Positions 2,939 through 21,219 of a DNA stretch of 22,840 nt are shown here, in pieces. Under the pieces are notes generated by a model. It searched no databases and had not been told where the DNA came from. It was given only the letters and a program-made list of their open reading frames with translations. This DNA is from a virus: positions 1 to 22,840 of IMG/VR virus record IMGVR_UViG_3300032797_000050. One strand, written 5' to 3'. The position numbers and the translations under genes are program-made. Position 1 is the first letter of the stretch; the number at the start of each line of letters is the position of its first letter.

Positions 2939-3583
2939 CTATGGTTTAGATACGGGAATCATGGCTTTAAGTTTGGCAATTTTAGCTTCTAGTTCTTTTA
3001 TTTTGCGAGAGCGTCCGTCTTGAAAACCTTTGGCAAAGCCGTCTGAATATCCCTTGTTGTGATCTGAGGCATGGTTATTCTTAGTCGTTAGTTCCAAGTT
3101 ACTCAATTCGTTATTAGATTTGTTGCCGTCCTTATGGTGGACGGTTTCCCAGGGTTGGAGACATCGTCCCATTGATTGTGCCATGACAAGCCGGTGTTCA
3201 AATACATACCCCTCGATATTGGCCATAGAATAGTAATGATCATCAGACTTCAACTTAATCTTGATATAGCCAGTCGCACACACTACACGACCGCCTTTCC
3301 AATTAGACCTGACACAATGACGGCATACTCTTGTCTCCGGCTTGCCCTTAACAAATCTTACCCAGCGTTCTTTGCCACACCCCTCACAGGGCAGTAGGAC
3401 AAATAGGTTCGTATCTGCTGGCCTGCCAATATCACGACCTCTAGTAACCAAGTGACCTTCATATTCAGTAGGTAACTGTGCCAGTGGTCTCCCCCCTGAC
3501 TTCCCTATATCGCTATAATGAGACGGCCCATGCCTTCGGAATGTTTCAAGTCCACCGATTCTGCCACCTTCCTTCTTATCCAT
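2939..3583 (-). CDS. HNH endonuclease with KGG N-terminus and zinc ribbon
   Basis: 214 residues. Residues 4-33 hold a KGG/GsiB-like unit (GGRIGGLETFRRHG, then SDIGKSGGRP). A zinc ribbon follows (C66/C69 in PCEGCGKERWV, C87/C90 in VCRHC). The HNH nuclease core includes NWKGGR, EHRLVMAQSMGRCLQPWETV (129-148) and HHKDGNKSNNELSNLEL, with catalytic H149/H150 and a conserved Asn near 162. The C-terminus is a basic coiled coil (KIKELEAKIAKLKAMI). No SD precedes the ATG at 3583; the promoter's -10 lies only 7 bases upstream, so the message is probably leaderless. The stop leaves about 60 bases before the helix-turn-helix gene. Likely a free-standing homing endonuclease. Confidence 0.92.
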   Translation of the reverse strand: MDKKEGGRIGGLETFRRHGPSHYSDIGKSGGRPLAQLPTEYEGHLVTRGRDIGRPADTNLFVLLPCEGCGKERWVRFVKGKPETRVCRHCVRSNWKGGRVVCATGYIKIKLKSDDHYYSMANIEGYVFEHRLVMAQSMGRCLQPWETVHHKDGNKSNNELSNLELTTKNNHASDHNKGYSDGFAKGFQDGRSRKIKELEAKIAKLKAMIPVSKP

Positions 3584-6748: not shown

Positions 6749-7303
6749 TCAATATGGATGAGTCGCAGGATAATTTAACAAATCATCCCCTCCATTTGTG
6801 TCTATATTCCGTCTTGTCGGACTCCAACCCGCAGCGTCTAATACTCTCTCGATAGCTTCGCCATCTGATATTGAATCCGTATCTTCGGGGTCTTGTGTTA
6901 TCATTTGACGAGCTAATAAGTCAGTCCCATCCGTCACGTATAAAATCACGGTTTGTCTATCAGGGCGGGGGTCTACCTTGATACTGGAAATGAAACCAAA
7001 GAAGACGGGATATTCAACCGCATTATGCGTCGCTCTTATCCTCACCGTCAGCCAAGGACGGATTCTGTCATAATATGGACTCGCCACATTATAAGGTGAA
7101 TAGTCAGCACACAGCCCAGCTTTCAGTCTAATTTGCAGAGTCGCAGCGGGAGCGTTCCCTTCCTCTGTTTCCTTTCCCCTGACAGTCTCGATATAAGAAA
7201 CGTCATCGGAAATATCATCATCTCCACTGAAAACAGGGTCATGAGCCCAGTTCGTAGCATCCCAATCTACCATGACTTCGTAGCTTATACTTGATAGCGT
7301 CAT
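6749..7303 (-). CDS. Tail hub protein, N-terminal section as separate gene
   Basis: 184 residues; ATG at 7303 overlaps the tape measure stop (ATGA). VMVDWDATNWAHDPVFSGDD and DVSYIETVRGKETEEGNAPA are the N-terminal signature of siphovirus hub proteins with a gp27/distal-tail-like beta barrel, followed by ATLQIRLKAG, SPYYDRIRPWLTVRIRATHN, YPVFFGFISSIKVDP and VTDGTDLLARQ. In related phages the chain continues past 'LDAAGW...IDTNGGDDLLN' into the 'FYID' segment; here it stops at PATHPY. Directly follows the tape measure gene, as tail-tip genes do. Confidence 0.72.
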   Translation of the reverse strand: MTLSSISYEVMVDWDATNWAHDPVFSGDDDISDDVSYIETVRGKETEEGNAPAATLQIRLKAGLCADYSPYNVASPYYDRIRPWLTVRIRATHNAVEYPVFFGFISSIKVDPRPDRQTVILYVTDGTDLLARQMITQDPEDTDSISDGEAIERVLDAAGWSPTRRNIDTNGGDDLLNYPATHPY

Positions 7304-8574
7304 ATTGCACTCTTTCCATAGAAGTAACCCTGATTGACTGGTGCAAAAGCGTTTCTGCGTCCGTCCTCTCCACTGAGTTGTTTTATCCTGCGCATGAACT
7401 CGCGCAAGCCTATTTCATCAGCTATAAGCGTTCCAACATGAAAGTGTTGGTGTATTTCCCCCATTGGTCGTCCTATGTTCTGGACTCCGAGATATTCCTC
7501 GCCTCCATGAGCTAGAATGGGAATCGGCGCACCTATCGGGCCGGGGACGATACCACCATATTGCATTCCTGGGACTTCGGCTTCAGGGGTTTCGTATGTT
7601 ACAGAACCCATCAACTTACCCATCCCAACAATAGCGGCGGCTGCTATCCCAATCCCGATAGCTAACTTCGCCCATCCTGCGGGGCCAGCCAGCCCGTGCA
7701 TGATTGCTATGGCTACGTTTATGGCTATGATGGCTTTTGCCAAATTACCTAACCCTATTAAGATCATACCCCCAACGGCCAGAATTCCACCTATCTTGAG
7801 TAAACTGACCACGAGATCTTCATGTGTCTTAATCCAGTCAGCTACCTTGGTGATTAACGGGACGATCTTCTGCTCCATTAAGTCAGTGAGGATCGGCATC
7901 AATGTACTCCCAATCGCATCTGCTATCTTCCCAAAACTCTCCTTTAGTTTAACAAGAGCATCATTGAAGGCATCAGACTTCTTGGCTGCTTCCTCATCTA
8001 CAATCCTCCCGTATTCGTGAGCCTCCTCACGCATCTTGGCAATCCCGTCGGCTCCATTGGCTAGCATAGGAAGTAAATCTGTCCCGCTTCTGCCGAAGAT
8101 TTGTGTAGCTGTAGCAGCCCGTATAGTAGGGTCTTCAATCTGTGCTATTGCCAAACCCAGAGCATAGAATTGTTCCTCCGGAGACATTGCCTTCAACTCT
8201 TCAATAGATAGTCCTAGTTCATTAATGGCCTTAGTTGCTTCCGGTGCCCCTGAGAAGGCATCAGACAATACCATCTGCATCCGCTTGATTCCAATTTCTA
8301 AGCCTTCTATAGACGTTCCAGATAGTTCAGCCATATACCTAAGCTCGGAAAGAGCAACCGTGCCTAGCCCTGTCCTTTTGGACATCTCATATATTTCATC
8401 ACCGAGCTTGGCAGAAGCGATGGTTGCCCCGATTAACCCACCGGCAATAGCTGTGCCGAGCAGCAACATTTTCTTGCCGAGATCAGTACATCGCTTCTCG
8501 ACGTTCTTGAGTCCCTTTTCAAGATCGGTTGAATCTACCCGGAGTTTTAATAGAGCGTCACCTAGTTGTATCAT
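7300..8574 (-). CDS. Tape measure protein
   Basis: 424 residues; ATG at 8574 overlaps the stop of the chaperone frameshift product (ATGA). N-terminus LRVDSTDLEKGLKNVEKRCT, then a hydrophobic segment (about 35-53) and ARLGD-like 'SAKLGDEIYEMSKRTGL', 'LRYMAELSGTSIEGLEIGIK' and 'IFGRSGTDLLPMLANGADGI' are standard tape measure motifs. Two long hydrophobic stretches follow (about 255-315). The C-terminus has GGIVPGPIGAPIPILAHGGE and an IHQHFHVGTL His cluster. It is short for the family; if tail length follows the usual ruler relation, the tail is short for a siphovirus (inference). Confidence 0.92.
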   Translation of the reverse strand: MIQLGDALLKLRVDSTDLEKGLKNVEKRCTDLGKKMLLLGTAIAGGLIGATIASAKLGDEIYEMSKRTGLGTVALSELRYMAELSGTSIEGLEIGIKRMQMVLSDAFSGAPEATKAINELGLSIEELKAMSPEEQFYALGLAIAQIEDPTIRAATATQIFGRSGTDLLPMLANGADGIAKMREEAHEYGRIVDEEAAKKSDAFNDALVKLKESFGKIADAIGSTLMPILTDLMEQKIVPLITKVADWIKTHEDLVVSLLKIGGILAVGGMILIGLGNLAKAIIAINVAIAIMHGLAGPAGWAKLAIGIGIAAAAIVGMGKLMGSVTYETPEAEVPGMQYGGIVPGPIGAPIPILAHGGEEYLGVQNIGRPMGEIHQHFHVGTLIADEIGLREFMRRIKQLSGEDGRRNAFAPVNQGYFYGKSAI

Positions 8575-9958: not shown

Positions 9959-10381
9959 TTAACCTCCTTTGATTTTTATCTCAAAAAATGTACGAACTGA
10001 GAAGTAATTTGGTATCTCATCCTGTAAATCTTGCCCCTGTACCTCCTCTCTTGCTGAAAGGATATAGTAGGTATTTGCGCCAACTACTACCGGTGTGTAT
10101 GCGTCATAATACCCACCTATCCCCTGCAAGCAATCAAACAATGATCTGTAAATTGTTCTTGCATCAATGGGATCGTCGTCCCAGCAATCGAATTGAACAG
10201 ACGGACTTACGATACCGTCTACTATAGGGAGAGCTGTCCCTCCCCTTGTTAGGAATGTTATATTTGGAAGGACAGCGTTCTCCGGTGCTCGGGGGCAGTA
10301 GATTCTATTCGTCACTAAAGCCGCCACAGGTTGAGTTAATAGATAGGCTCTTATTATTGTATTCGTATCCGGCAAACTCAT
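9959..10381 (-). CDS. Tail terminator / tail completion protein (DUF3168-like)
   Basis: 140 residues; ATG 10381 overlaps the HNH stop (ATGA) and the gene ends 2 bases before the tail tube start. LPDTNTIIRAYLLTQPVAAL, VTNRIYCPRAPENAVLPNIT and SVQFDCWDDDPIDARTIYRS are characteristic of the small alpha/beta tail terminator proteins that cap the tail tube. Position between the gp10-like gene and the tail tube is conserved for this role. Because the HNH gene lies just upstream, translation here may be coupled to it. Confidence 0.8.
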   Translation of the reverse strand: MSLPDTNTIIRAYLLTQPVAALVTNRIYCPRAPENAVLPNITFLTRGGTALPIVDGIVSPSVQFDCWDDDPIDARTIYRSLFDCLQGIGGYYDAYTPVVVGANTYYILSAREEVQGQDLQDEIPNYFSVRTFFEIKIKGG

Positions 10382-10992
10382 AATTTTTCTCCAATCACTC
10401 GGTTTAATTCGATTTTAAGTGCCCTGTTTTCCTCTTGAAGTCGCTTTATCTTATTCTGCATAATGGTCAGTTGATTGTGATTATTAATCAATTCAAGGGA
10501 AAGATTTTCTATACGGTTATCATCCCTGACCCCATTTTTATGATGAACTATCTCCCAAGGTAATAAGCATCGCCCTATATATTTTGCCATTACAAGGCGA
10601 TGCTCTTTTATCCTTCCGTGAAATGCCATCGGATAGAAGAAATCATCGGGTCGAATCCATATTTCTATGTATCCCTTAACTGTCTTATGTCTTCCACCCT
10701 TCCAGTTATAGGCATTTTCACCTCTAATACTTGCTTTTCGTTCCTCATTCCAGTGTGTACCCTTCTTTTTCCTACCAGCCTGCCTATATTTCTCTCTTGT
10801 TTCCTCAGTAAGAATTTTGGCTTTATTACCACACTCAACACAAAGAGTTCTAATCGCCTTCCCATTCCTGATAGCTACCCATCTTTCAAGACCACACCTC
10901 GCACAGGATTGCCAGATAAATTTATGGTATTGGTCTGCTTTGTTAGTTCTGCCAATCTCTAATCCCTTTTTAATTTCCCCTAGTTCTACCAT
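10378..10992 (-). CDS. HNH homing endonuclease inserted in the head-tail module
   Basis: 204 residues. Zinc ribbon (C30/C33 in SCARCGLERWV, C51/C54 in LCVECG), then a GENAYNWKGGRHKTVKGYIE segment, EHRLVMAKYIGRCLLPWEIV (130-149) and HHKNGVRDDNRIENLSLE with catalytic H150/H151 and conserved Asn near 163, then a coiled coil (174-199). The layout equals that of the HNH gene at 2939 without its KGG unit. It interrupts an otherwise standard gene order (gp10-like, tail terminator), overlaps its downstream neighbour by only four bases and carries its own promoter. It probably cuts phages lacking it at this locus (inference from homing endonucleases). Confidence 0.92.
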   Translation of the reverse strand: MVELGEIKKGLEIGRTNKADQYHKFIWQSCARCGLERWVAIRNGKAIRTLCVECGNKAKILTEETREKYRQAGRKKKGTHWNEERKASIRGENAYNWKGGRHKTVKGYIEIWIRPDDFFYPMAFHGRIKEHRLVMAKYIGRCLLPWEIVHHKNGVRDDNRIENLSLELINNHNQLTIMQNKIKRLQEENRALKIELNRVIGEKL

Positions 10993-12490: not shown

Positions 12491-12493
12491 TTA
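12477..12493. repeat. 17-bp direct repeat, copy B
   Basis: Identical to 12268-12284; on the minus strand it covers the stop of the 190-residue gene and the vestigial MTCKI start. Confidence 0.9.
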
Positions 12494-13063
12494 ACTCCTA
12501 AAGTGCATTGGGAGTGGGCCAGTTCTTCTTACCCACTCAATATGAAGTTTAGCCGAAAGTCCTGGTGTTGCATTCCAAGCATACGATATACACTCCCTGA
12601 CTGTACCCTCGACAATGGGTTTGAAAATTGCTACCAGTGCTGTGGGTGAGTAATTGTCAATGACTTCCTGCAAGGAGGTAACTAAACTCGGAGATTGCTT
12701 CCAACCAGTTCCTAGACTACTCTCCTCCCAATTAACATGGGCAGTTGTGAATATTCTGCTTGTTATATCAGCATTATTATTTGTAAATTGTGCAGGTGAA
12801 CCTGCTTTCTCGAAATACCACTCACCATCCATGTCATCTGAATCTGTTGTTTTAACATATATCTCTATGTAGGCAGCAGTTATAACGCTATCTTGAGGTG
12901 GTAATAATGCACTCGACCAACGATGTGCTGTATAATCGCTGTTTGGTAGTGCATTACCAGAGCGGTGAAGTTGCTCGGTACCAATAATCCAACATATCGT
13001 TGTGGCACCTTCTTCATTACCATCATCTGCGCTCGCTGATACCTGAAGGTCTATCTTAGGCAT
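12491..13063 (-). CDS. Beta-sandwich virion protein (DNRLRE/CBM-like)
   Basis: 190 residues with SD GAGGAG; it starts one base after the 947-residue gene's stop. Sequence such as VITAAYIEIYVKTTDSDDMD, SRIFTTAHVNWEESSLGTGW, SLVTSLQEVIDNYSPTALVA and GLSAKLHIEW follows the pattern of DNRLRE-type jelly-roll domains: 'A.L.lyv......v.W......W..p.......i.......a.l.ie'. These are found in cell-surface and phage proteins and often bind sugars. It may be a virion decoration or carbohydrate-binding protein linked to the fibre cassette. Similarity judged by eye only. Confidence 0.5.
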   Translation of the reverse strand: MPKIDLQVSASADDGNEEGATTICWIIGTEQLHRSGNALPNSDYTAHRWSSALLPPQDSVITAAYIEIYVKTTDSDDMDGEWYFEKAGSPAQFTNNNADITSRIFTTAHVNWEESSLGTGWKQSPSLVTSLQEVIDNYSPTALVAIFKPIVEGTVRECISYAWNATPGLSAKLHIEWVRRTGPLPMHFRS

Positions 13064-13064
13064 T

Positions 13065-15908
13065 CTAATATCTCCTCAACCAATCTAAGTCTTTTCTCTC
13101 ATGCTCGGCATACCAACCCTTCCCATGCAAATCCTGCACCTTCATAAAGTATTCCTGATACTTCGGAGCAATCACATCCATAGAGTAATTAGCAACTGCA
13201 TACTCTCTACAGCGCTTCGGACTTATCTTGTCTATATTCCTCGCTGCCCACAGGAAGTCGTCCATTGTATGACATCTATATCCAACCTCACCTTGTAAAA
13301 CAATCTCCGGGAAACTGCCCCAGTCTGTCGTTATCACTGGAGTCCCACATAATAAAGCCTCCACAACGACTAACCCGAAGGGTTCAAAGTATAACGAAGG
13401 TGTTATAACCGCTCTAGCGTTCCTTAGGAGCTCGTTACGGCTCTTCAAATCTACCGTGCCTATATATTCCACATGAGGCTGTAAGAGTCCTAAATCCTTG
13501 AGACATTGTTTATCATCAGGATAAAGAGGCTGCCCAGCGACAATTAACTTCGCTCCCAATCGCTTTGTAATATCGGCAACGATATGAATACCTTTCCGTT
13601 TAATCAGTCTCCCGATGTAAACATAGTGGTCGCCCTTCTTTTCCTGAAAGGTGAAGTCATCAGGGTCGAAGAAATGAGGTATAACAGCGTCATACCAATT
13701 TCCACTAGCGAAGTTTTCGGCTTTTGTCTTTGCTGATAACGCCCTAGCCTCGCACCTTCTCCCTGCCATGTGGTGCATCCAGGCGTAAGACGGGAACACT
13801 TTATATTTAGAGTAGTATCCAATGTATCCTACTATCGGCTCGATAGCCTGCATTGACGGAAAGGCATTGCTAATCTCAGCCATCCAAGAACCGTTGGAAA
13901 TGAGAAGCATATCTTTCGGCTCGGCTCGTTTCTTAATTTCTTCAATGGCATTCTTGCGGAAGGTTCGGTAGGCTAAATCTTGACCGTTGTGAATCCATAA
14001 TTGTTTTCTGGAATCCCAGTCTCCATATGCTTCCTTTTGAACCGCCTGAGTCAGAACATCTATGTGTTCGGTGCATTGAAGCTCACTACCCTCTGTTCCA
14101 TAATGATAGACCTCATGTCCCAGATTTGTGAGCATTGTCGAGAGTCTATAAACGAGTTGTGTGAAGGCACACATCGTCTCTTCCTTTCGGGTTATCGCAT
14201 GAGGTAAACCGAGAAGGTGAAACCTAAAGTGGTCAGTCTTTGGGGTAGAAATTGGAACCTGTTTAGGTCGCTTTTCTACTTTCAATAATTGAGCCTTCAG
14301 CCTCCCAAACTTTCGTGGGTAAAGGTCAGTCTCAGGCATCACCTGACATTGATAATCATTTGTTAGCTCGTTCTTAATGAAGTACGACCCTATGAAAGGC
14401 ATCTCATCGCAGTAGTCATCGAAATAGACGACTGTATCATCCTTCATTAGTTTAGATGAATATTGCCAATCGCTACGAGTTGTCTCGATAGTATGCCCAC
14501 CATCTATGTAGATTAAATCCATCTTGGGAAGAGAGTCTATATATTGAGGGAGAGTCTTGCGGGAATTGCCCTTAAATAGCGTTATGCGGGCTCTAGTGGC
14601 ACTTTCTAGTCTTTGCCTTACTTCTTCTATGGTCGGGACTTTATTAGTCTGGAAACTCCACTCCTCGTCTCTTAATTGAGGAGTCATCTCCTCAAACAGG
14701 TCAAATCCGTAGAATCTAATCTCTTCTTCGGGTACTTTCTTGGCAGCTTCCTTAATCATGGCTACGGCGGATGCCCCATCAAATACGCCAATCTCCATGA
14801 TGTTTCTACATTGTTTCTCTGATAGTGTCCTGAAAAGAGGTCTATAATGCTTCCTGTAATCGGTTAGCCATGTCTCCGAAGGTGTTTTTTCTAGCATATA
14901 GATAACTCTCCTTCCATTGAACCTGTTCGCAACCTTCATGTCGGTATTCTGTTCTATTTCTTTTATGGACTCCGGGGTGTGAAAGTCATACTTTGGATAA
15001 GGGTCTTTACCCCATCCCCTCTCATTCTGATTATTAGGCACTTCCATGAAGATTAGATTAGCCTTGTCTCTAAGAAGTTGTAGCTTTTCTAATCCCTTCT
15101 CAATGCCGATTGTTTTCATGTCGTTATGAATCACAGCTAAGAAGAGGATGGTATCATATACGACACCGTTTAGAGATTCCGACCAGTCTTTCACCAAATG
15201 GTAATCAACCTTCAAATTTTGAAGGACTGTCAAGTATCTCGCAGCAGCGATTAACCCCTTAGAACGGTCAATGGCGGTTACTTCATAACCTCTTTTTGAG
15301 AGTTCCCTTGAGTAGTATCCTTCAGAGCAACCGATGTCTAAAACTCGTTTGCCGTTCAGATTTTTGAGTATATACTCCAATCTTTGAGCAGCATCATAGC
15401 GGTCAACCTTCCAGCCCTTTAATCTGGAATCCTCTACTGGCTGATAAGTCCACTTGCCTTGTGGAGCTTCTTTTAGTAAAACTTCTTCTAGAGGAAAGTC
15501 CTTATGAAACTTCCCATCATATCTATCTTTCCAATTCGTCTCACAGTTTAGAAGAATGTCCTGATTGAGATAATGTAAGATTGCTACTCGGTGGAAGCCG
15601 TCTCCTAAGTGAATAAACCCTTCCTCATCGAACCAGATGTAAATTGTAGAGCCGTTGTAGCCACTCTTTAGGCTTTCATATAGGTCTATAATCTGCTGCT
15701 GTCTCTCGTAAGCGGACTCTATCGTATTGCCTTTATCGAAACAGTAGGCATGGTGCTTCCATTGGGTCGCTTTTATGAACGGGGAGTCGGTTAAATCCTC
15801 TCCTCTATCATACATAGCAAGCATTTCCTGGACGGGTTTCTCTATCGGCTTGCCTGTTATGTAGGACTTATCGGCAGGTAACAGGGAGCTTCTAATTTGG
15901 TATTTCAT
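13065..15908 (-). CDS. Four-domain fusion: ParB-like, two methyltransferases, GT4 glycosyltransferase
   Basis: 947 residues. Domain 1 (about 1-125) has the ParB/sulfiredoxin-fold motif GDGFHR (102-107). Domain 2 (150-340) is a class I SAM methyltransferase with VLDIGCSEGYYS (189-200) and is similar along its length to the separate 206-residue methyltransferase. Domain 3 (350-545) is a second, different methyltransferase-like fold: MEIGVFDGAS (371-380), YGFDLFEE and YIDGGHT (467-473), like Methyltransf_24/macrocin O-methyltransferases. Domain 4 (560-930) is a GT-B glycosyltransferase of GT4 type with IGRLIKRKG (765-773) and EPFGLVVVE, the E-x7-E motif (842-850). ATG 15908 overlaps the upstream gene by 17 bases. 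Its GT and methyltransferases probably act on a glycan; the target is inferred from the adjacent collagen-like fibre. Confidence 0.88.
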   Translation of the reverse strand: MKYQIRSSLLPADKSYITGKPIEKPVQEMLAMYDRGEDLTDSPFIKATQWKHHAYCFDKGNTIESAYERQQQIIDLYESLKSGYNGSTIYIWFDEEGFIHLGDGFHRVAILHYLNQDILLNCETNWKDRYDGKFHKDFPLEEVLLKEAPQGKWTYQPVEDSRLKGWKVDRYDAAQRLEYILKNLNGKRVLDIGCSEGYYSRELSKRGYEVTAIDRSKGLIAAARYLTVLQNLKVDYHLVKDWSESLNGVVYDTILFLAVIHNDMKTIGIEKGLEKLQLLRDKANLIFMEVPNNQNERGWGKDPYPKYDFHTPESIKEIEQNTDMKVANRFNGRRVIYMLEKTPSETWLTDYRKHYRPLFRTLSEKQCRNIMEIGVFDGASAVAMIKEAAKKVPEEEIRFYGFDLFEEMTPQLRDEEWSFQTNKVPTIEEVRQRLESATRARITLFKGNSRKTLPQYIDSLPKMDLIYIDGGHTIETTRSDWQYSSKLMKDDTVVYFDDYCDEMPFIGSYFIKNELTNDYQCQVMPETDLYPRKFGRLKAQLLKVEKRPKQVPISTPKTDHFRFHLLGLPHAITRKEETMCAFTQLVYRLSTMLTNLGHEVYHYGTEGSELQCTEHIDVLTQAVQKEAYGDWDSRKQLWIHNGQDLAYRTFRKNAIEEIKKRAEPKDMLLISNGSWMAEISNAFPSMQAIEPIVGYIGYYSKYKVFPSYAWMHHMAGRRCEARALSAKTKAENFASGNWYDAVIPHFFDPDDFTFQEKKGDHYVYIGRLIKRKGIHIVADITKRLGAKLIVAGQPLYPDDKQCLKDLGLLQPHVEYIGTVDLKSRNELLRNARAVITPSLYFEPFGLVVVEALLCGTPVITTDWGSFPEIVLQGEVGYRCHTMDDFLWAARNIDKISPKRCREYAVANYSMDVIAPKYQEYFMKVQDLHGKGWYAEHERKDLDWLRRY

Positions 15909-16353
15909 ACTTCGTTACGAGTTTATCCTTTGCTGAATCCAATAATTCCACAATAGACGGATTGAAGTTCTCCATGAACCAGTCCCTTGATAGAAACTGC
16001 TTTCTTCTCCCGCCGGTGACCTGAACAGGAATACTCTCTAGATTGAGAGCCATCGCACAACAGAACCTATGTCTGCCGTCTCCTATCCAATAGTCCTCTT
16101 GTACTCTGATCGGACTGCACTCAAGGAAGCCTTCAGCCTTCATACGCTTCATCAAGCCCTTAATTCGCTTCCAACTTCCAATATGCCAACCCAGTTTGAC
16201 GACTTTAGAACCCAGTTCCTCGTAGTATCTCTCGTAATCCTCGTTATCTTCGCAATCTACGATTGATTCAAAGACAATGTAGTAATATAAACACTCGTAT
16301 CTCTTGAAGTCACCATCACGGCATTGGAGTCTAAATAAAGTTGCAAGTTCCAT
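15892..16353 (-). CDS. ParB/sulfiredoxin-fold protein
   Basis: 153 residues. The motif IGDGRHRFCCAMALNLESIP at 91-110 matches the nucleotide-binding GxxRxxA signature of ParB-like domains. The N-terminal half is helical (ECLYYYIVFESIVDCEDNED) and a helix of basic and aromatic residues precedes the motif. The start overlaps the methyltransferase end by about 23 bases (ATG 16353; TTG 16356 is also possible). The same domain type opens the next gene's 947-residue protein. ParB-like domains may act as CTP switches, nucleases or, in the serine kinase SerK, as kinases; which applies is unknown. In this setting a non-partitioning role is likely. Confidence 0.7.
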   Translation of the reverse strand: MELATLFRLQCRDGDFKRYECLYYYIVFESIVDCEDNEDYERYYEELGSKVVKLGWHIGSWKRIKGLMKRMKAEGFLECSPIRVQEDYWIGDGRHRFCCAMALNLESIPVQVTGGRRKQFLSRDWFMENFNPSIVELLDSAKDKLVTKYEIPN

Positions 16354-16951
16354 CAAGTATGAAAATGATTCTTCGGAACCGAGCCGAGTCTATAATTCTC
16401 AATCCGGTAGCATCCTCAACCCTTTTCCGAGATTCCTTTACGTTGAAGTCCAGATAATCAGGAGTGTTTCTTTCCTTTATCCCCCCAGGTACTTCAAAGA
16501 ACAATCTATTTACTCTTCCTCTGAACGAATTGAGCTTTCTTAAAGTTCCCTCTATGCCTAACCTCTTCACTTCATTGTGAAACACGCTTAGATAAAGGAC
16601 ATTATCGAACTGATCCATAATGTCAACCCAGTCTCCGGCGTAACAAGTAACGTCTAATCCTTCTGTCAAGTACTTCGCAACCTCAATAATATTCGATCTG
16701 TTATCAACCGCCGTCACCTTAAACCCCAACTTCGCTATCTCGCGACTGAAGTAACCTTCAGCACAGCCAATGTCTAAGACTGTTTTCCCTACCAGGTTTT
16801 CAGTGATGTACTTCAGTCTTTCGGGAGAATCCTTGCGGGATACTTCCCAATCATCTAATACTGGTTGATAGGTTTTTCTACCGCAAGGTCGCTCTTTTTG
16901 TAGTATCTCAATAAGGTGAGAATCCATTATTAGGTTTTTTGCTCCTGCCAT
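16331..16951 (-). CDS. Class I SAM-dependent methyltransferase
   Basis: 206 residues, SD AAAGGAGATAA. Motif I is VLDIGCAEGYFS (58-69), with the acidic residue after beta-2 in VTAVDNRSN (79-87) and NVLYLSVFHN (117-126) as motif IV. The leading segment GRKTYQPVLDDWEVSRKDSP matches a segment of the 947-residue protein (GKWTYQPVEDSRLKGWKVDR), so the two are paralogues. Ten bases separate it from the fibre gene. A sugar or protein O-methylation role is inferred from neighbours; no DNA-methylase catalytic motif (DPPY/NPPY) is present. Confidence 0.85.
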   Translation of the reverse strand: MAGAKNLIMDSHLIEILQKERPCGRKTYQPVLDDWEVSRKDSPERLKYITENLVGKTVLDIGCAEGYFSREIAKLGFKVTAVDNRSNIIEVAKYLTEGLDVTCYAGDWVDIMDQFDNVLYLSVFHNEVKRLGIEGTLRKLNSFRGRVNRLFFEVPGGIKERNTPDYLDFNVKESRKRVEDATGLRIIDSARFRRIIFILDGTCNFI

Positions 16952-16961
16952 TTATCTCCTT

Positions 16962-19703
16962 TTAGGTTGCCATTATTAAGTAAGTTAGCAAATAAGTGTC
17001 AACAGTTGACCCGAATATAGTTTGTGTTGCACCACTGCCATTATAAACACCAACACTAATCAAGTCATTGACACTCAGAAGGAATATCCCAGATGTAAAT
17101 GTTGTGAGGCCTGAGTAGTTATGCGAACTGTGGAAGTATGCAGCCTGTATATTAACTTCATTTTTGGATATTATGGGGAGATAGAACTTATCAGCCACGA
17201 TGGTTCCTCCGTGCCAGGTCATTGAAACCCCTATAAAGTAGTATCCAGCTACGGGTACTTTATACGCTGCCTTGGTAATCGTATAGTAATAATTATTGGC
17301 AAAATTATCACCAGTGGTTTTTTGAATAGTAAGGTTTGAAGCATCAACTACGGCAGTTACATACCCCTTGCCAGTGTTTAGAGTTCCATTCCAGTCGCTT
17401 GACCATGTTACCCTACAGTTCTTCAATCCGTTAGTTTGTCCTGTTATAGTTTGGAAATTAACACTTGTATCCCTAATATTGGTCGCTGTGCAGTTGTTGG
17501 CATCGGCTTGCTCTTGGTTATAGTATTTGCCTGTCTGGAAGTTACTGCCTAAATCAAAGTTACTTGTATTCAATTCAATTCTGGCATAGTTTAATGCGGC
17601 GGGAATATCATCTTGGTCAGAACTCATATAATATCTACAGAAGGTAGTATTGGGGTGTATGGATGTTTTTAGTTGAACATTATGGTTACTATATAGAATA
17701 GTATTTGCCCCTGCTCCATGAACGCCTGTGGTGGCAACTCCATGGTCATACATCACATTGGAAGTTGGTGCTTTGGTCGTTTCTCCGTCAGTGCCACCTG
17801 CGGTATTGTCAAGAGAAACAGCAGGACCGCTCGGTCCTGACGGTCCGCTAGGTCCGCTAGGTCCAGTCGCATTTACACCTGTTGGACCACTCGGGCCTGA
17901 TGGTCCACTAGGCCCTGTAGCGTTCACGCCTGTCGGACCTGAAGGACCGCTTGGACCAGAAGGTCCTGAAGGTCCACTCGGCCCTGAAGGGCCTGATGGG
18001 CCTGACGGCCCTGTCGCATTGACCCCTGTTGGCCCTGACGGACCCGAAGGGCCTGAGGGGCCTGAAGGTCCAGTTGTACCAGCGCCTGTCGGACCACTTG
18101 GCCCACTGGGTCCTGAAGGACCTGTTGCTCCAGCTCCTGTCGGTCCTGAAGGGCCTGACGGGCCTTTTTCTACCAGTAAATCCCAATAAGTTGTCCAACT
18201 TCCGCCTACTCCTGGTTCATCGCCAGCAGCAGAGGTATGACCTAGAATACAGACATATCCGCTTCCGTCATTCTCAACACAATCATTAACTTGATATGTA
18301 GTTGATACTACCCAGGGGCCTTCCCAAGTAAACTCAGTTCCAGTGGGTCCTGAGGGTCCTGATGGTCCGCTAGGCCCTGAGGGACCAGTAGCATTCACTC
18401 CTGTAGGACCGCTAGGACCGGACGGTCCTGACGGGCCACTAGGCCCCGAAGGGCCCGTAGCATTAACACCTGTTGGACCTGACGGCCCTGATGGACCGCT
18501 GGGTCCCGATGGACCAGATGGCCCGGTTGCGTTCACACCAGTTGGACCGGATGGTCCAGACGGGCCACTCGGTCCTGAGGGACCAGAAGGTCCTGTTGAG
18601 TTGACACCCGTTGGTCCTGAAGGACCAGACGGCCCCGACGGGCCACTTGGACCAGATGGACCAGTTGCATTAACTCCAGTAGGGCCAGATGGACCAGACG
18701 GTCCTGAGGGTCCTGACGGGCCAGTAGCATTTACTCCTGTTGGTCCAGACGGTCCTGAGGGACCAGACGGACCAGAGGGTCCACTAGGTCCACTAGGACC
18801 TGTACTGCCCACTCCAGTTGGACCCGAAGGGCCAGATGGTCCTGATGGTCCACTGGGGCCAGTAGCGTTTACCCCAGTCGGGCCAGATGGGCCAGACGGG
18901 CCTGAAGGGCCCGAAGGACCTGTAACTGATGCTGATCCTGCTGGCCCAGACGGTCCACTTGGACCATGGGGTCCTGATGGGCCACTCGGACCAGTCGAAC
19001 CTGGAGTTCCTACTCCAGTCGGCCCAGACGGGCCTGACGGTCCAGAGGGACCTGACGGCCCGGTAGAACCTGCACCTGTCGGGCCACTGGGTCCTGATGG
19101 ACCACTGGGTCCTGACGGACCGGATGGCCCAGAAATACTAACACCTGACGGCCCCGATGGGCCACTTGGCCCTGAAGGACCGCTAATTCCAACTCCTGTG
19201 GGACCTGACGGCCCCGACGGACCAGAAGGGCCACTTGGACCTGATGCACCTGCTCCGGTTGGACCCGAAGGCCCGCTTGGTCCACTAGGCCCACTAACCC
19301 CAGCACCAGTAGGCCCACTCGGGCCTGATGGCCCTGAAGGGCCTGTTGCATTTACTCCAGTAGGACCGGAGGGTCCGCTAGGACCACTCGGGCCTGATGA
19401 GCCAGTTCCACCAACCCCGGTTGGTCCACTAGGACCTGAAGGACCACTGGGTCCGCTTGGTCCACTGGGACCGCTGGGACCAGATGGTCCACTAGGGCCA
19501 CTGGGGCCGCTAGGTCCTGAGGGTCCAGTTGCCCCTGATGGGCCTGTAACGCCAGGTCCACCACCAGCCATTGCTATCTTAAGATTAGCTCCTGTGATTT
19601 TCTTGGTCTGGTCAGGGGTGGCTTCTGTATCTACAATAGCAAATAAATCAGCATCAGCAACCGTAACCTTTGCATCAAGTTCACTTATTCTTTGATCGGC
19701 CAT
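16962..19703 (-). CDS. Collagen-like fibre with C1q/TNF-like C-terminal head
   Basis: 913 residues; SD GAGGATGAAAT. Residues 1-47 ([20 protein letters not shown], then [17 protein letters not shown]) are a phage fibre anchor motif. Residues about 48-453 and 512-628 are Gly-Pro-Ser/Thr collagen triplets with [12 protein letters not shown] blocks. Between them (about 454-511) sits a globular module, [20 protein letters not shown], resembling carbohydrate-binding/chitin-binding type 3 modules. Residues 629-913 form a head whose end ([52 protein letters not shown]) reads as a C1q-like domain, with an about 75-residue insert (DTSVNFQT..., [13 protein letters not shown]). A trimeric virion fibre, probably receptor binding, is likely. 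Adjacent GT and methyltransferases may modify its Ser/Thr. Confidence 0.9.
17820..18170 (-). repeat. Collagen-triplet coding repeats, second block
   Basis: Tandem nine-base units coding Gly-Pro-Ser (with Gly-Pro-Thr at block ends) near the C-terminal head of the fibre. Synonymous codons vary widely between units (GGA/GGT/GGC, CCT/CCC/CCA), so selection on protein rather than simple slippage probably maintains the repeat. Ends are approximate. Confidence 0.85.
18343..19560 (-). repeat. Collagen-triplet coding repeats, main block
   Basis: About 400 codons of Gly-X-Y, mostly GPS, broken periodically by GPTGVNATG or GPTGAGxxG. Units differ in synonymous codons. Because GGN-CCN is self-complementary in pattern, the opposite strand also reads Gly-Pro triplets without stops. 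Confidence 0.85.
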
Positions 19704-19728
19704 ATTTCATCCTCAATAGGCAAATTTT

Positions 19729-20031
19729 CTATTTATAAGATACCGTTATGTCCGCCGTTACCGCATTGCTAAAAACTATATATAGGCCGGCAAGGTATCC
19801 GACATCGTAAACCAGTGTCGTAGGAATGACAAAGAGGGCGGCATCCATTGCGATTATGCTTATGATATTGGCCGTAACCCCTATTCCGTCATAAACGGTA
19901 ACAATCGCACTCGCTGTCGTATCAGGGCGGTTTATCGTTATCGTATGAAGCATTCCAGGGGCAGAAGCCACCTGATTTGTATTTGTAAGATGCTTATAGT
20001 CAAAAGGTCTTTCTAATGGTGTAAAAGGCAT
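19729..20031 (-). CDS. 100-residue hypothetical virion protein
   Basis: ATG at 20031 chosen because SD GGAGGTGAAT lies directly before it; a start at 20043 would contain the SD in its coding part. The product starts MPFTPLERPFDYKHLTNTNQ and is beta-rich, with PGMLHTITINRPDTTASAIV and VYDVGYLAGLYIVFSNAVTA, ending DITVSYK. The pattern resembles small head or fibre-anchoring beta proteins next to capsid genes, but no family is recognised. It sits between the capsid gene and the fibre, and its SD can be hidden in a hairpin. Confidence 0.65.
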   Translation of the reverse strand: MPFTPLERPFDYKHLTNTNQVASAPGMLHTITINRPDTTASAIVTVYDGIGVTANIISIIAMDAALFVIPTTLVYDVGYLAGLYIVFSNAVTADITVSYK

Positions 20032-20034
20032 ATT

Positions 20035-20070
20035 CACCTCCAAGGGAGGTGGGGGCCTATGCCCCCACCT
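20035..20070 (-). promoter_or_regulatory. Competing hairpins after the capsid gene
   Basis: Minus strand: 12 bases after the capsid stop is a perfect 10-bp stem AGGTGGGGGC/GCCCCCACCT (20061-20070 with 20047-20056) with a 4-base loop, no U-run. The overlapping CACCTCC (20045-20051) can instead pair with GGAGGTG (20035-20041), the SD of the next gene. Only one of the two stems can form fully. Confidence 0.6.
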
Positions 20071-20082
20071 GATTTGAAAAGA

Positions 20083-21219
20083 CTAGACAGCACTTAACTG
20101 TCCGTAAGTTGCTCGCCATTCGAGCCTGTTGCATCCAAAGACATCCCTCACGCGGTAGAACACGTTATCAGTAGCGAAGTCTCCAGTCATAGGAGAAATC
20201 TCGCCACCGCCAATGTTCACCTTGTCGGAAGCCTTCATGCAGATTTCGGGTCTCTCATGCCCGGTTAAGTAGTCGCATTCCATAGCTGCTATATCCTTCG
20301 GGTCTGCAAACAGGAACCACGAAAGAACAGCGTTAGGAGCGAAGATAGGAATGTACGGGTCTACTACTAATTGCAGTCCGTACTGAGAGACTACATTAGT
20401 CGTTGGATAAGGAACTGGCGTACCTCCAGCCCCTAATGTCTGCCATTCCAGCCACATCTTAGTAGCTGAACTCAGGATTTGTCGTGCTGTGAACTCCAAG
20501 CCGGGGCCGACTACGAGATATTTAGCTCGATTCATTATCGGCTCGCCATTGGCATCCGTAAACGCAGCCATCGCCTCACAAGTGTTCTCAAGATTGGCGA
20601 TAGTCAGAGGGAGCGCGCCGGAGTTGGCATTCGCAGCAGCATACAGATTCGCAGCACCTACGAGGTCAGCCACATATACCCCTGTAACCAGCCGATGCTC
20701 AGTCCGTATCGCAGCACGGGCAAATCTCTCTGGGGTGTCCTTTAAGGCACCGAGGTCATCATTTACCAGGGCTTCCCACGAGATGTCGAACTGTCGCCCG
20801 TATTTCTTGACATAGCAAGCGTAACGAGCTTCGTTCCTCTCACTTGCTAAATACTCGCCCTTCTCGGCGACTTCCTCTAAGTGCTGATCGCCCCCGGTGA
20901 TACCGAACCGATATCCACCTATTTGAGGGAAGATTCTCGGCACGGTTCCCATTCTAACAAAAGCCTTCCAAACAGGGTCAACTGCTTTGTAAGCAGCCAA
21001 TACCTGTCTATCTAAGACATCGCCGAACAGGTAAGGAAAGTCGCTCGTGGTCAGAGCCTCACGCAGCATGAACTCGTGCCTGTGAGGTGAATAACCCTTC
21101 GCGTTCGACAAAAGGTCAAGCGTTTCCTTCAGTTTAATATCATAGTTTTCTGGTTTCTTTGTTTCTGAGAGGGCAAAATACCCATCCCAGGATTTCATAG
21201 TCTCTAAAAGATCAGACAT
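20083..21219 (-). CDS. Major capsid protein (HK97-fold)
   Basis: 378 residues with SD AAGGAGGTTTAGAA. The N-terminal helical part (MSDLLETMKSWDGYFALSET) leads to HEFMLREALTTSDFPYLFGD, VLDRQVLAAY and VDPVWKAFVRMGTVPRIFPQ. The later body has EKGEYLASERNEARYACYVK, FDISWEALVNDDLGALKDTP and KYLVVGPGLEFTARQILSSA. These match the Mu gpT-type branch of HK97-fold capsid proteins. No N-terminal scaffold of typical length is visible, so a separate scaffold or protease would be upstream. Decoration-type proteins precede it and a strong hairpin follows it. Confidence 0.9.
   Translation of the reverse strand: MSDLLETMKSWDGYFALSETKKPENYDIKLKETLDLLSNAKGYSPHRHEFMLREALTTSDFPYLFGDVLDRQVLAAYKAVDPVWKAFVRMGTVPRIFPQIGGYRFGITGGDQHLEEVAEKGEYLASERNEARYACYVKKYGRQFDISWEALVNDDLGALKDTPERFARAAIRTEHRLVTGVYVADLVGAANLYAAANANSGALPLTIANLENTCEAMAAFTDANGEPIMNRAKYLVVGPGLEFTARQILSSATKMWLEWQTLGAGGTPVPYPTTNVVSQYGLQLVVDPYIPIFAPNAVLSWFLFADPKDIAAMECDYLTGHERPEICMKASDKVNIGGGEISPMTGDFATDNVFYRVRDVFGCNRLEWRATYGQLSAV

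Follow-up and report, generated by a model that had tools for sequence, protein, structure and literature searches.

What would a virus gain from carrying a set of sugar- and methyl-transferring enzymes directly beside a gene of its own particle? The question is raised by IMG/VR virus record IMGVR_UViG_3300032797_000050, analyzed whole (22,840 bases, hereafter the window; host type, bacteria), whose genes lie on the minus strand and form a virion module. Right after a gene for a collagen-like fiber (16962..19703) come those for a class I methyltransferase of 206 residues (P0003, 16331..16951), a ParB-like protein (P0002, 15892..16356; 153 residues from an ATG start or 154 from a TTG) and a fusion protein of 947 residues in four parts (P0001, 13065..15908), all on that strand. 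On balance, we favor the view that this cassette is a virion-modification module, predicted to O-glycosylate serines and threonines in the fiber repeats and to methylate that glycan. We observe the enzyme domains, their position in the operon, and the recurrent coupling of the GT4 glycosyltransferase both to Ser/Thr-rich collagen fibers and to fused methyltransferases.

Pfam and PHROG matches show that P0001 begins with an N-terminal domain that has no significant family match, continues with two methyltransferase domains, of Methyltransf_23/25 type and then Methyltransf_24, and ends in a GT4 domain. The last (residues 556-947, 13068..14243) matches Pfam Glycos_transf_1 at 3.1e-23 and PHROG 3408 at 3.3e-98, and carries the EX7E motif of retaining GT4 enzymes (EPFGLVVVE, E842 and E850, 13359-13385), with both glutamates conserved in the family alignment. 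It is, as predicted from its sequence, a GT4 (GT-B) glycosyltransferase expected to transfer sugar. Three S-adenosylmethionine (SAM) methyltransferase domains pass the Pfam cut-offs: P0003 (Methyltransf_31/25, about 2e-8), the first fused domain (residues 146-343, 14880..15473; Methyltransf_23, 6.4e-9), and the second (residues 346-548, 14265..14873; Methyltransf_24, 7.2e-15). Their SAM-binding motifs are VLDIGCxEGY and IMEIGVFDG, and the methyltransferase family profile matches WbdD (1e-9) and ToxA methyltransferases in the PDB. An earlier sequence-only reading of the window had proposed three genes for proteins of 947, 153, and 206 residues at these coordinates, the longest fusing two methyltransferases to a GT4 domain. 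The open frames bear this out, as do the Pfam matches (6e-9, 7e-15, and 3e-23), and both domain types on which that reading depended, GT4 and SAM-binding, are recognized by sequence.

The same reading was right that the genes overlap or nearly abut, but it overlooked the fiber gene and the virion-operon setting. The P0003 gene, preceded by the ribosome-binding site AAAGGAG, starts 10 bp after the fiber gene and overlaps the P0002 gene by 26 bp (23 bp if P0002 begins at its ATG), which in turn overlaps the P0001 gene by 17 bp. Fiber, methyltransferase, ParB-like, and fusion genes are contiguous or overlapping within the block of capsid, connector, and tail genes, which supports a role of the cassette in the virion. 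The fiber itself (913 residues; Pfam Collagen 4e-37, PHROG tail fiber 5.5e-90) is a phage structural protein made collagen-like by its long Gly-X-Y repeat, which includes 108 GPS and 21 GPT triplets and spans roughly 17724-19562. Serine or threonine occupies the Y position in 139 of 166 triplets (84%; 111 Ser, 28 Thr), and charged residues are almost absent. Between collagen stretches, residues 464-498 resemble the carbohydrate-binding module CBM_5_12 (1.5e-5, narrowly missing the Pfam cut-off). The fiber gene comes after the capsid gene region (16962-21219), and because of this order the collagen-like protein may be a head fiber rather than a tail fiber. A 450-residue open reading frame (ORF) on the plus strand, antisense to the fiber (18343-19695), was dismissed as an artifact of the GGN-CCN repeats.

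Is the association with a collagen-like gene peculiar to this virus? We gathered 80 viral GT4-family loci by sequence alone (one of them, L006, is again the contig L002 described below) and, from the same collection, 79 control loci with a methyltransferase profile. A collagen-like ORF, defined as one with at least 10 Gly-X-Y triplets, lies near the gene in 38 of the 80 GT4 loci and in none of the 79 controls (Fisher p 2e-14; some GT4 loci are near-identical pairs, so that the effective number is somewhat below 80). The controls total 691 kb against 987 kb for the GT4 loci, a shortfall that cannot account for the difference. All 38 linked collagens are encoded on the same strand as the GT4, at a median gap of 62 bp, and 22 are within 124 bp. 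The linkage extends to reference phages, GT4 genes being next to or near collagen-repeat genes in three cyanophage species, ACG-2014f, S-CAM7, and S-CBWM1. The linked collagens also differ in composition. Their median Ser/Thr fraction at Y is 0.69 of triplets, against 0.33 in 67 phage collagens without this GT4, collected with a DNA pattern that leaves Y free (p 5e-7, or 1e-6 with duplicate fibers removed, in a comparison that ignores phylogeny), and they are depleted in charged residues.

These patterns bear on the usual reading of phage glycosyltransferases beside fiber genes (PMC7029224, PMC10202952), under which the enzymes would alter a host surface glycan (O-antigen, capsule, or teichoic acid) against superinfection or receptor trapping, the fiber being a mere neighbor. 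Some GT4 loci do have epimerases and other sugar genes as neighbors and lack a collagen gene, as this explanation would have it. Against it speak the close association, on one strand, with collagen-like genes in particular, the enrichment of these in Ser/Thr at Y, and the setting of the cassette between capsid and connector genes; no sugar-carrier or flippase partner was recognized in the window. We regard it as unlikely, if the most credible of the alternatives.

Fusion to methyltransferases likewise recurs in the family. Among 24 non-redundant GT4 proteins longer than 480 residues, at least 23 are fused to methyltransferases, 19 of Methyltransf_23 type, three of FkbM, and one of Methyltransf_24. 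In loci L006 to L085, many GT4 genes encode C-terminal methyltransferase fusions (Methyltransf_23, FkbM). The GT4 domain comes first in most of the long proteins and last in the window and in the viral contig L089, a difference in order which indicates that the joining arose more than once or was rearranged. The sequence-only reading had suggested searching for the four-domain order elsewhere, and this search found it twice. Contig L002 encodes a 941-residue protein with the same four domains, 68% identical to P0001. A GPS collagen-like gene precedes it by about 340 bp, with a 110-residue gene in between, and the contig has no separate methyltransferase and ParB-like genes. In L089/L090, the N-terminal part and a methyltransferase form a 350-residue protein, followed directly by an FkbM methyltransferase/GT4 protein; the L089 contig also codes for a collagen fiber with GPS/GAT repeats that runs off the contig end. 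Hence, one order (ParB-like part, two methyltransferases, GT4) is found again in fiber-encoding viruses, whether in one gene or in two. The second of the two methyltransferases varies in family, being Methyltransf_24 in the window and FkbM in L089. L089/L090 were found with the methyltransferase core; viral scans with the N-terminal domain, P0002, or the full-length methyltransferase returned only L002 or nothing. We searched IMG/VR, GenBank phages, and plasmids, along with one genome scan and selected genomes, and the rarity of the fused form could change with a wider search.

The cassette had also been read as containing a ParB-like plus methyltransferase pair twice, once as separate genes and once fused. 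For the methyltransferases this is correct: P0003 and the first fused domain are paralogues with 43% identity over 207 residues (E 1e-47), and their alignment has TYQPV, VLDIGC.EGY.SRE, and similar tails in common, the SAM motif of P0003 being VLDIGCAEGY (16751-16780). The first fused domain is 40% identical to its L089 counterpart. Since the two distances are about equal, we reject a recent tandem duplication, and either the duplication is old or the P0003 gene was acquired from elsewhere. The ParB-like half of the claim is not borne out, as P0002 and the fused N-terminal domain (residues 1-145, 15474..15908) align over only 15 residues around GDGxHR (E 0.24).

The two ParB-like parts differ in how well they can be placed. 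An assignment of P0002 as ParB/Srx-like is moderately supported by its sequence: it matches PHROG ParB families (E 3e-4 and 2e-3), its profile matches chromosomal ParB domains at E 1.4e-4 with a score of 29.3, above the maximum of 19.9 in 100 shuffles, it has DGRHR (16066-16080) as the P motif, and it shows weak PDB matches to ParB and SbnI. Pfam gave no ParB match even at E 10. It is no canonical ParB of a ParABS system, being 153 residues long without a helix-turn-helix or dimerization domain, and the window genes that were scanned included no recognizable parA-like gene. By motif only, the fused N-terminal domain is ParB/Srx-like, and neither profiles nor structure prediction support its membership. 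It has DGFHR (15588-15602) where the L089 homologue has DGHHR, an arrangement that a ParB P motif would show. Its ParB profile score of 12.8 falls within its shuffled null, and structure models from two and then three sequences reached a predicted local distance difference test (pLDDT) of 37 and 40, both of low confidence. Foldseek with the pLDDT-40 model returned nothing at E <= 0.001; a plasmid RK2 ParB-type complex (8qa9, rank 16, E 2.3) was set aside. This leaves the methyltransferase as the only part of the pair shown to occur twice. Phage records held no match to P0002 or to the N-terminal domain, and a genome scan for the ParB-like/methyltransferase part recovered remote methyltransferases only. 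Nor did the N-terminal domain match in 796 genomes of two phyla, a weak negative since it was obtained without a positive control.

Could such a domain point to DNA as the substrate? ParB proteins are classically DNA clamps, and a 2025 survey lists phage ParB-fold/Methyltransf_23 fusions as predicted DNA methyltransferases, perhaps anti-defense (PMC12704722). The cassette might by analogy methylate or glycosylate phage DNA against restriction, with the ParB-like parts binding DNA. We judge this very improbable: the methyltransferases match small-molecule or sugar types (Methyltransf_24, Methyltransf_23, and FkbM in relatives) and not the N6/N4 or C5 DNA methylase models of Pfam, their partner is a GT4, the genes are in a virion operon, and P0002 is too short for the helix-turn-helix and dimerization domains of a canonical ParB. 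A different use of the same domains would be as kinases, to phosphorylate the glycan (or serine) on the GPS repeats for a WbdD-like methyltransferase to cap the phosphate. Scans of P0001 to P0003 found no match to a kinase family and no WbdD-type kinase domain. We consider this variant a long shot. If true, the collagen fiber would bear methyl-phosphate-capped sugars, and some published phage ParB-Methyltransf_23 fusions would have to be re-read as glycan-modifying rather than DNA-modifying. The three viruses with a ParB-like/methyltransferase pair take ranks 1, 2, and 7 out of 44 when ordered by how strongly Ser is favored above Thr at Y, a post hoc observation that is only a hint.

How would glycosylation and methylation of the fiber proceed? 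During late gene expression, the GT4 domain would transfer or extend a sugar on Ser/Thr hydroxyls at the Y position of the Gly-X-Y repeats, and P0003 and the two fused methyltransferases would then O-methylate that glycan. The outcome would be a methylated glycan coat on the fiber, comparable to that of BclA on Bacillus spores. P0002, perhaps also the fused N-terminal domain, would contribute a step that depends on a nucleotide and serves regulation or phosphorylation; ATP binding is on record for ParB-fold/SAM-methyltransferase fusions (PMC12704722), and such a step is a conjecture here. The substrate, the sugar, the order of the steps, and any ParB-like role in this scheme are what we infer.

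Several points weigh against it. Of the 45 GT4 loci whose flanks reach 3 kb on either side, 26 have a collagen ORF and 19 have none in the fetched stretch, so the expectation that relatives lie close to a fiber gene holds in the window and in many of them, though not in all. Epimerases and other glycosyltransferases are among the neighbors in the sets scanned, which makes other acceptors possible, and the L089 fiber, on the same contig as the GT4 gene, is not adjacent to it. Class I methyltransferase families are functionally promiscuous. ParB-fold proteins include free-serine kinases, among them the archaeal SerK, whose substrate is free serine and not serine within a peptide (PMC5120207). 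Finally, the cassette holds no enzyme for sugar-nucleotide synthesis. The proposal of a machine that builds and attaches sugars must accordingly be narrowed: attachment and methylation are well supported, comparative genomics points to the fiber as target, and the sugar-building part finds no support.

The surrounding genes raise a further candidate substrate. Upstream of the fiber, at 20.1-22.8 kb, are a decoration-like protein (weak match), a gene of unassigned function, and the major capsid protein, and after the cassette come head-tail connectors, the major tail protein, and the tape measure protein, all on the minus strand. The P0001 gene abuts one for a 190-residue protein (12491..13063, minus strand; ribosome-binding site GAGGAG) that begins 1 bp past it, has no Pfam match, and is possibly in the same operon. 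This neighbor, the capsid, or the tail tube could be modified instead of the collagen repeats, and glycosylation of non-fiber virion proteins has been proposed for mycobacteriophages. The recurrent neighbor in relatives, however, is the collagen gene and not a homologue of any of these, which makes such a target distinctly unlikely. The structural operon also contains three HNH endonuclease genes (1716-2306, 2939-3583, and 10378-10992), probably homing endonucleases, and a tape measure protein (7300-8574) of just 424 residues, which suggests a short tail or a split gene.

Many phages have collagen-like fibers, whose modification has hardly been studied; in the literature searched, we found no paper linking phage glycosyltransferases to these fibers as substrate. 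With the linkage described here, a large glycosyltransferase family whose members are usually taken to protect DNA or to modify the host surface acquires a candidate substrate, and ParB-like domains of an uncharacterized class acquire a functional context that does not involve DNA. The fiber modification proposed for the cassette can be set against several known systems. The PHROG 3408 GT4s of cyanophages ACG-2014f, S-CAM7, and S-CBWM1 belong to the same family (28-44% identity) and have the same kind of neighbor, but they stand alone, without fused methyltransferases or a ParB-like part, and their repeats are Thr-rich rather than Ser-rich. Two of the three have a 2-oxoglutarate-Fe(II) oxygenase near the GT4 and collagen genes (L003 13082-13675, L004 11975-12571) that could hydroxylate the fiber. 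The phage ParB-fold/Methyltransf_23 fusions (PMC12704722) resemble the cassette in having a ParB-like part joined to or beside a Methyltransf_23-type domain. They are read as DNA methyltransferases, whereas the cassette is tied to a GT4 and a collagen fiber, and its fused N-terminal domain does not score as ParB. WbdD, which caps the O9a O-antigen, pairs a methyltransferase with a nucleotide-using second domain, as the cassette possibly does, and its partner kinase phosphorylates the glycan before methylation (PMC3482155). That kinase is eukaryotic-like, not ParB/Srx-like, and WbdD terminates a polysaccharide chain; a kinase role in the cassette is hypothetical. The collagen-like region of BclA is O-glycosylated on Thr of PTG, and the terminal sugar of its oligosaccharide is 2-O-methylated (PMC6222408), a precedent for both O-glycosylation and sugar methylation on a collagen-like protein. 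BclA is a bacterial spore (exosporium) protein modified on threonine, while the window fiber is a phage protein with mostly Ser of GPS. We know of no ParB-like part in the BclA system. Mimivirus L230 is a virus-encoded fusion of lysyl hydroxylase and glucosyltransferase that glycosylates a viral collagen-like protein (PMC9614988). It acts on hydroxylysine through unrelated domains in a eukaryotic virus, and it establishes that a virus can encode a glycosyltransferase for collagen.

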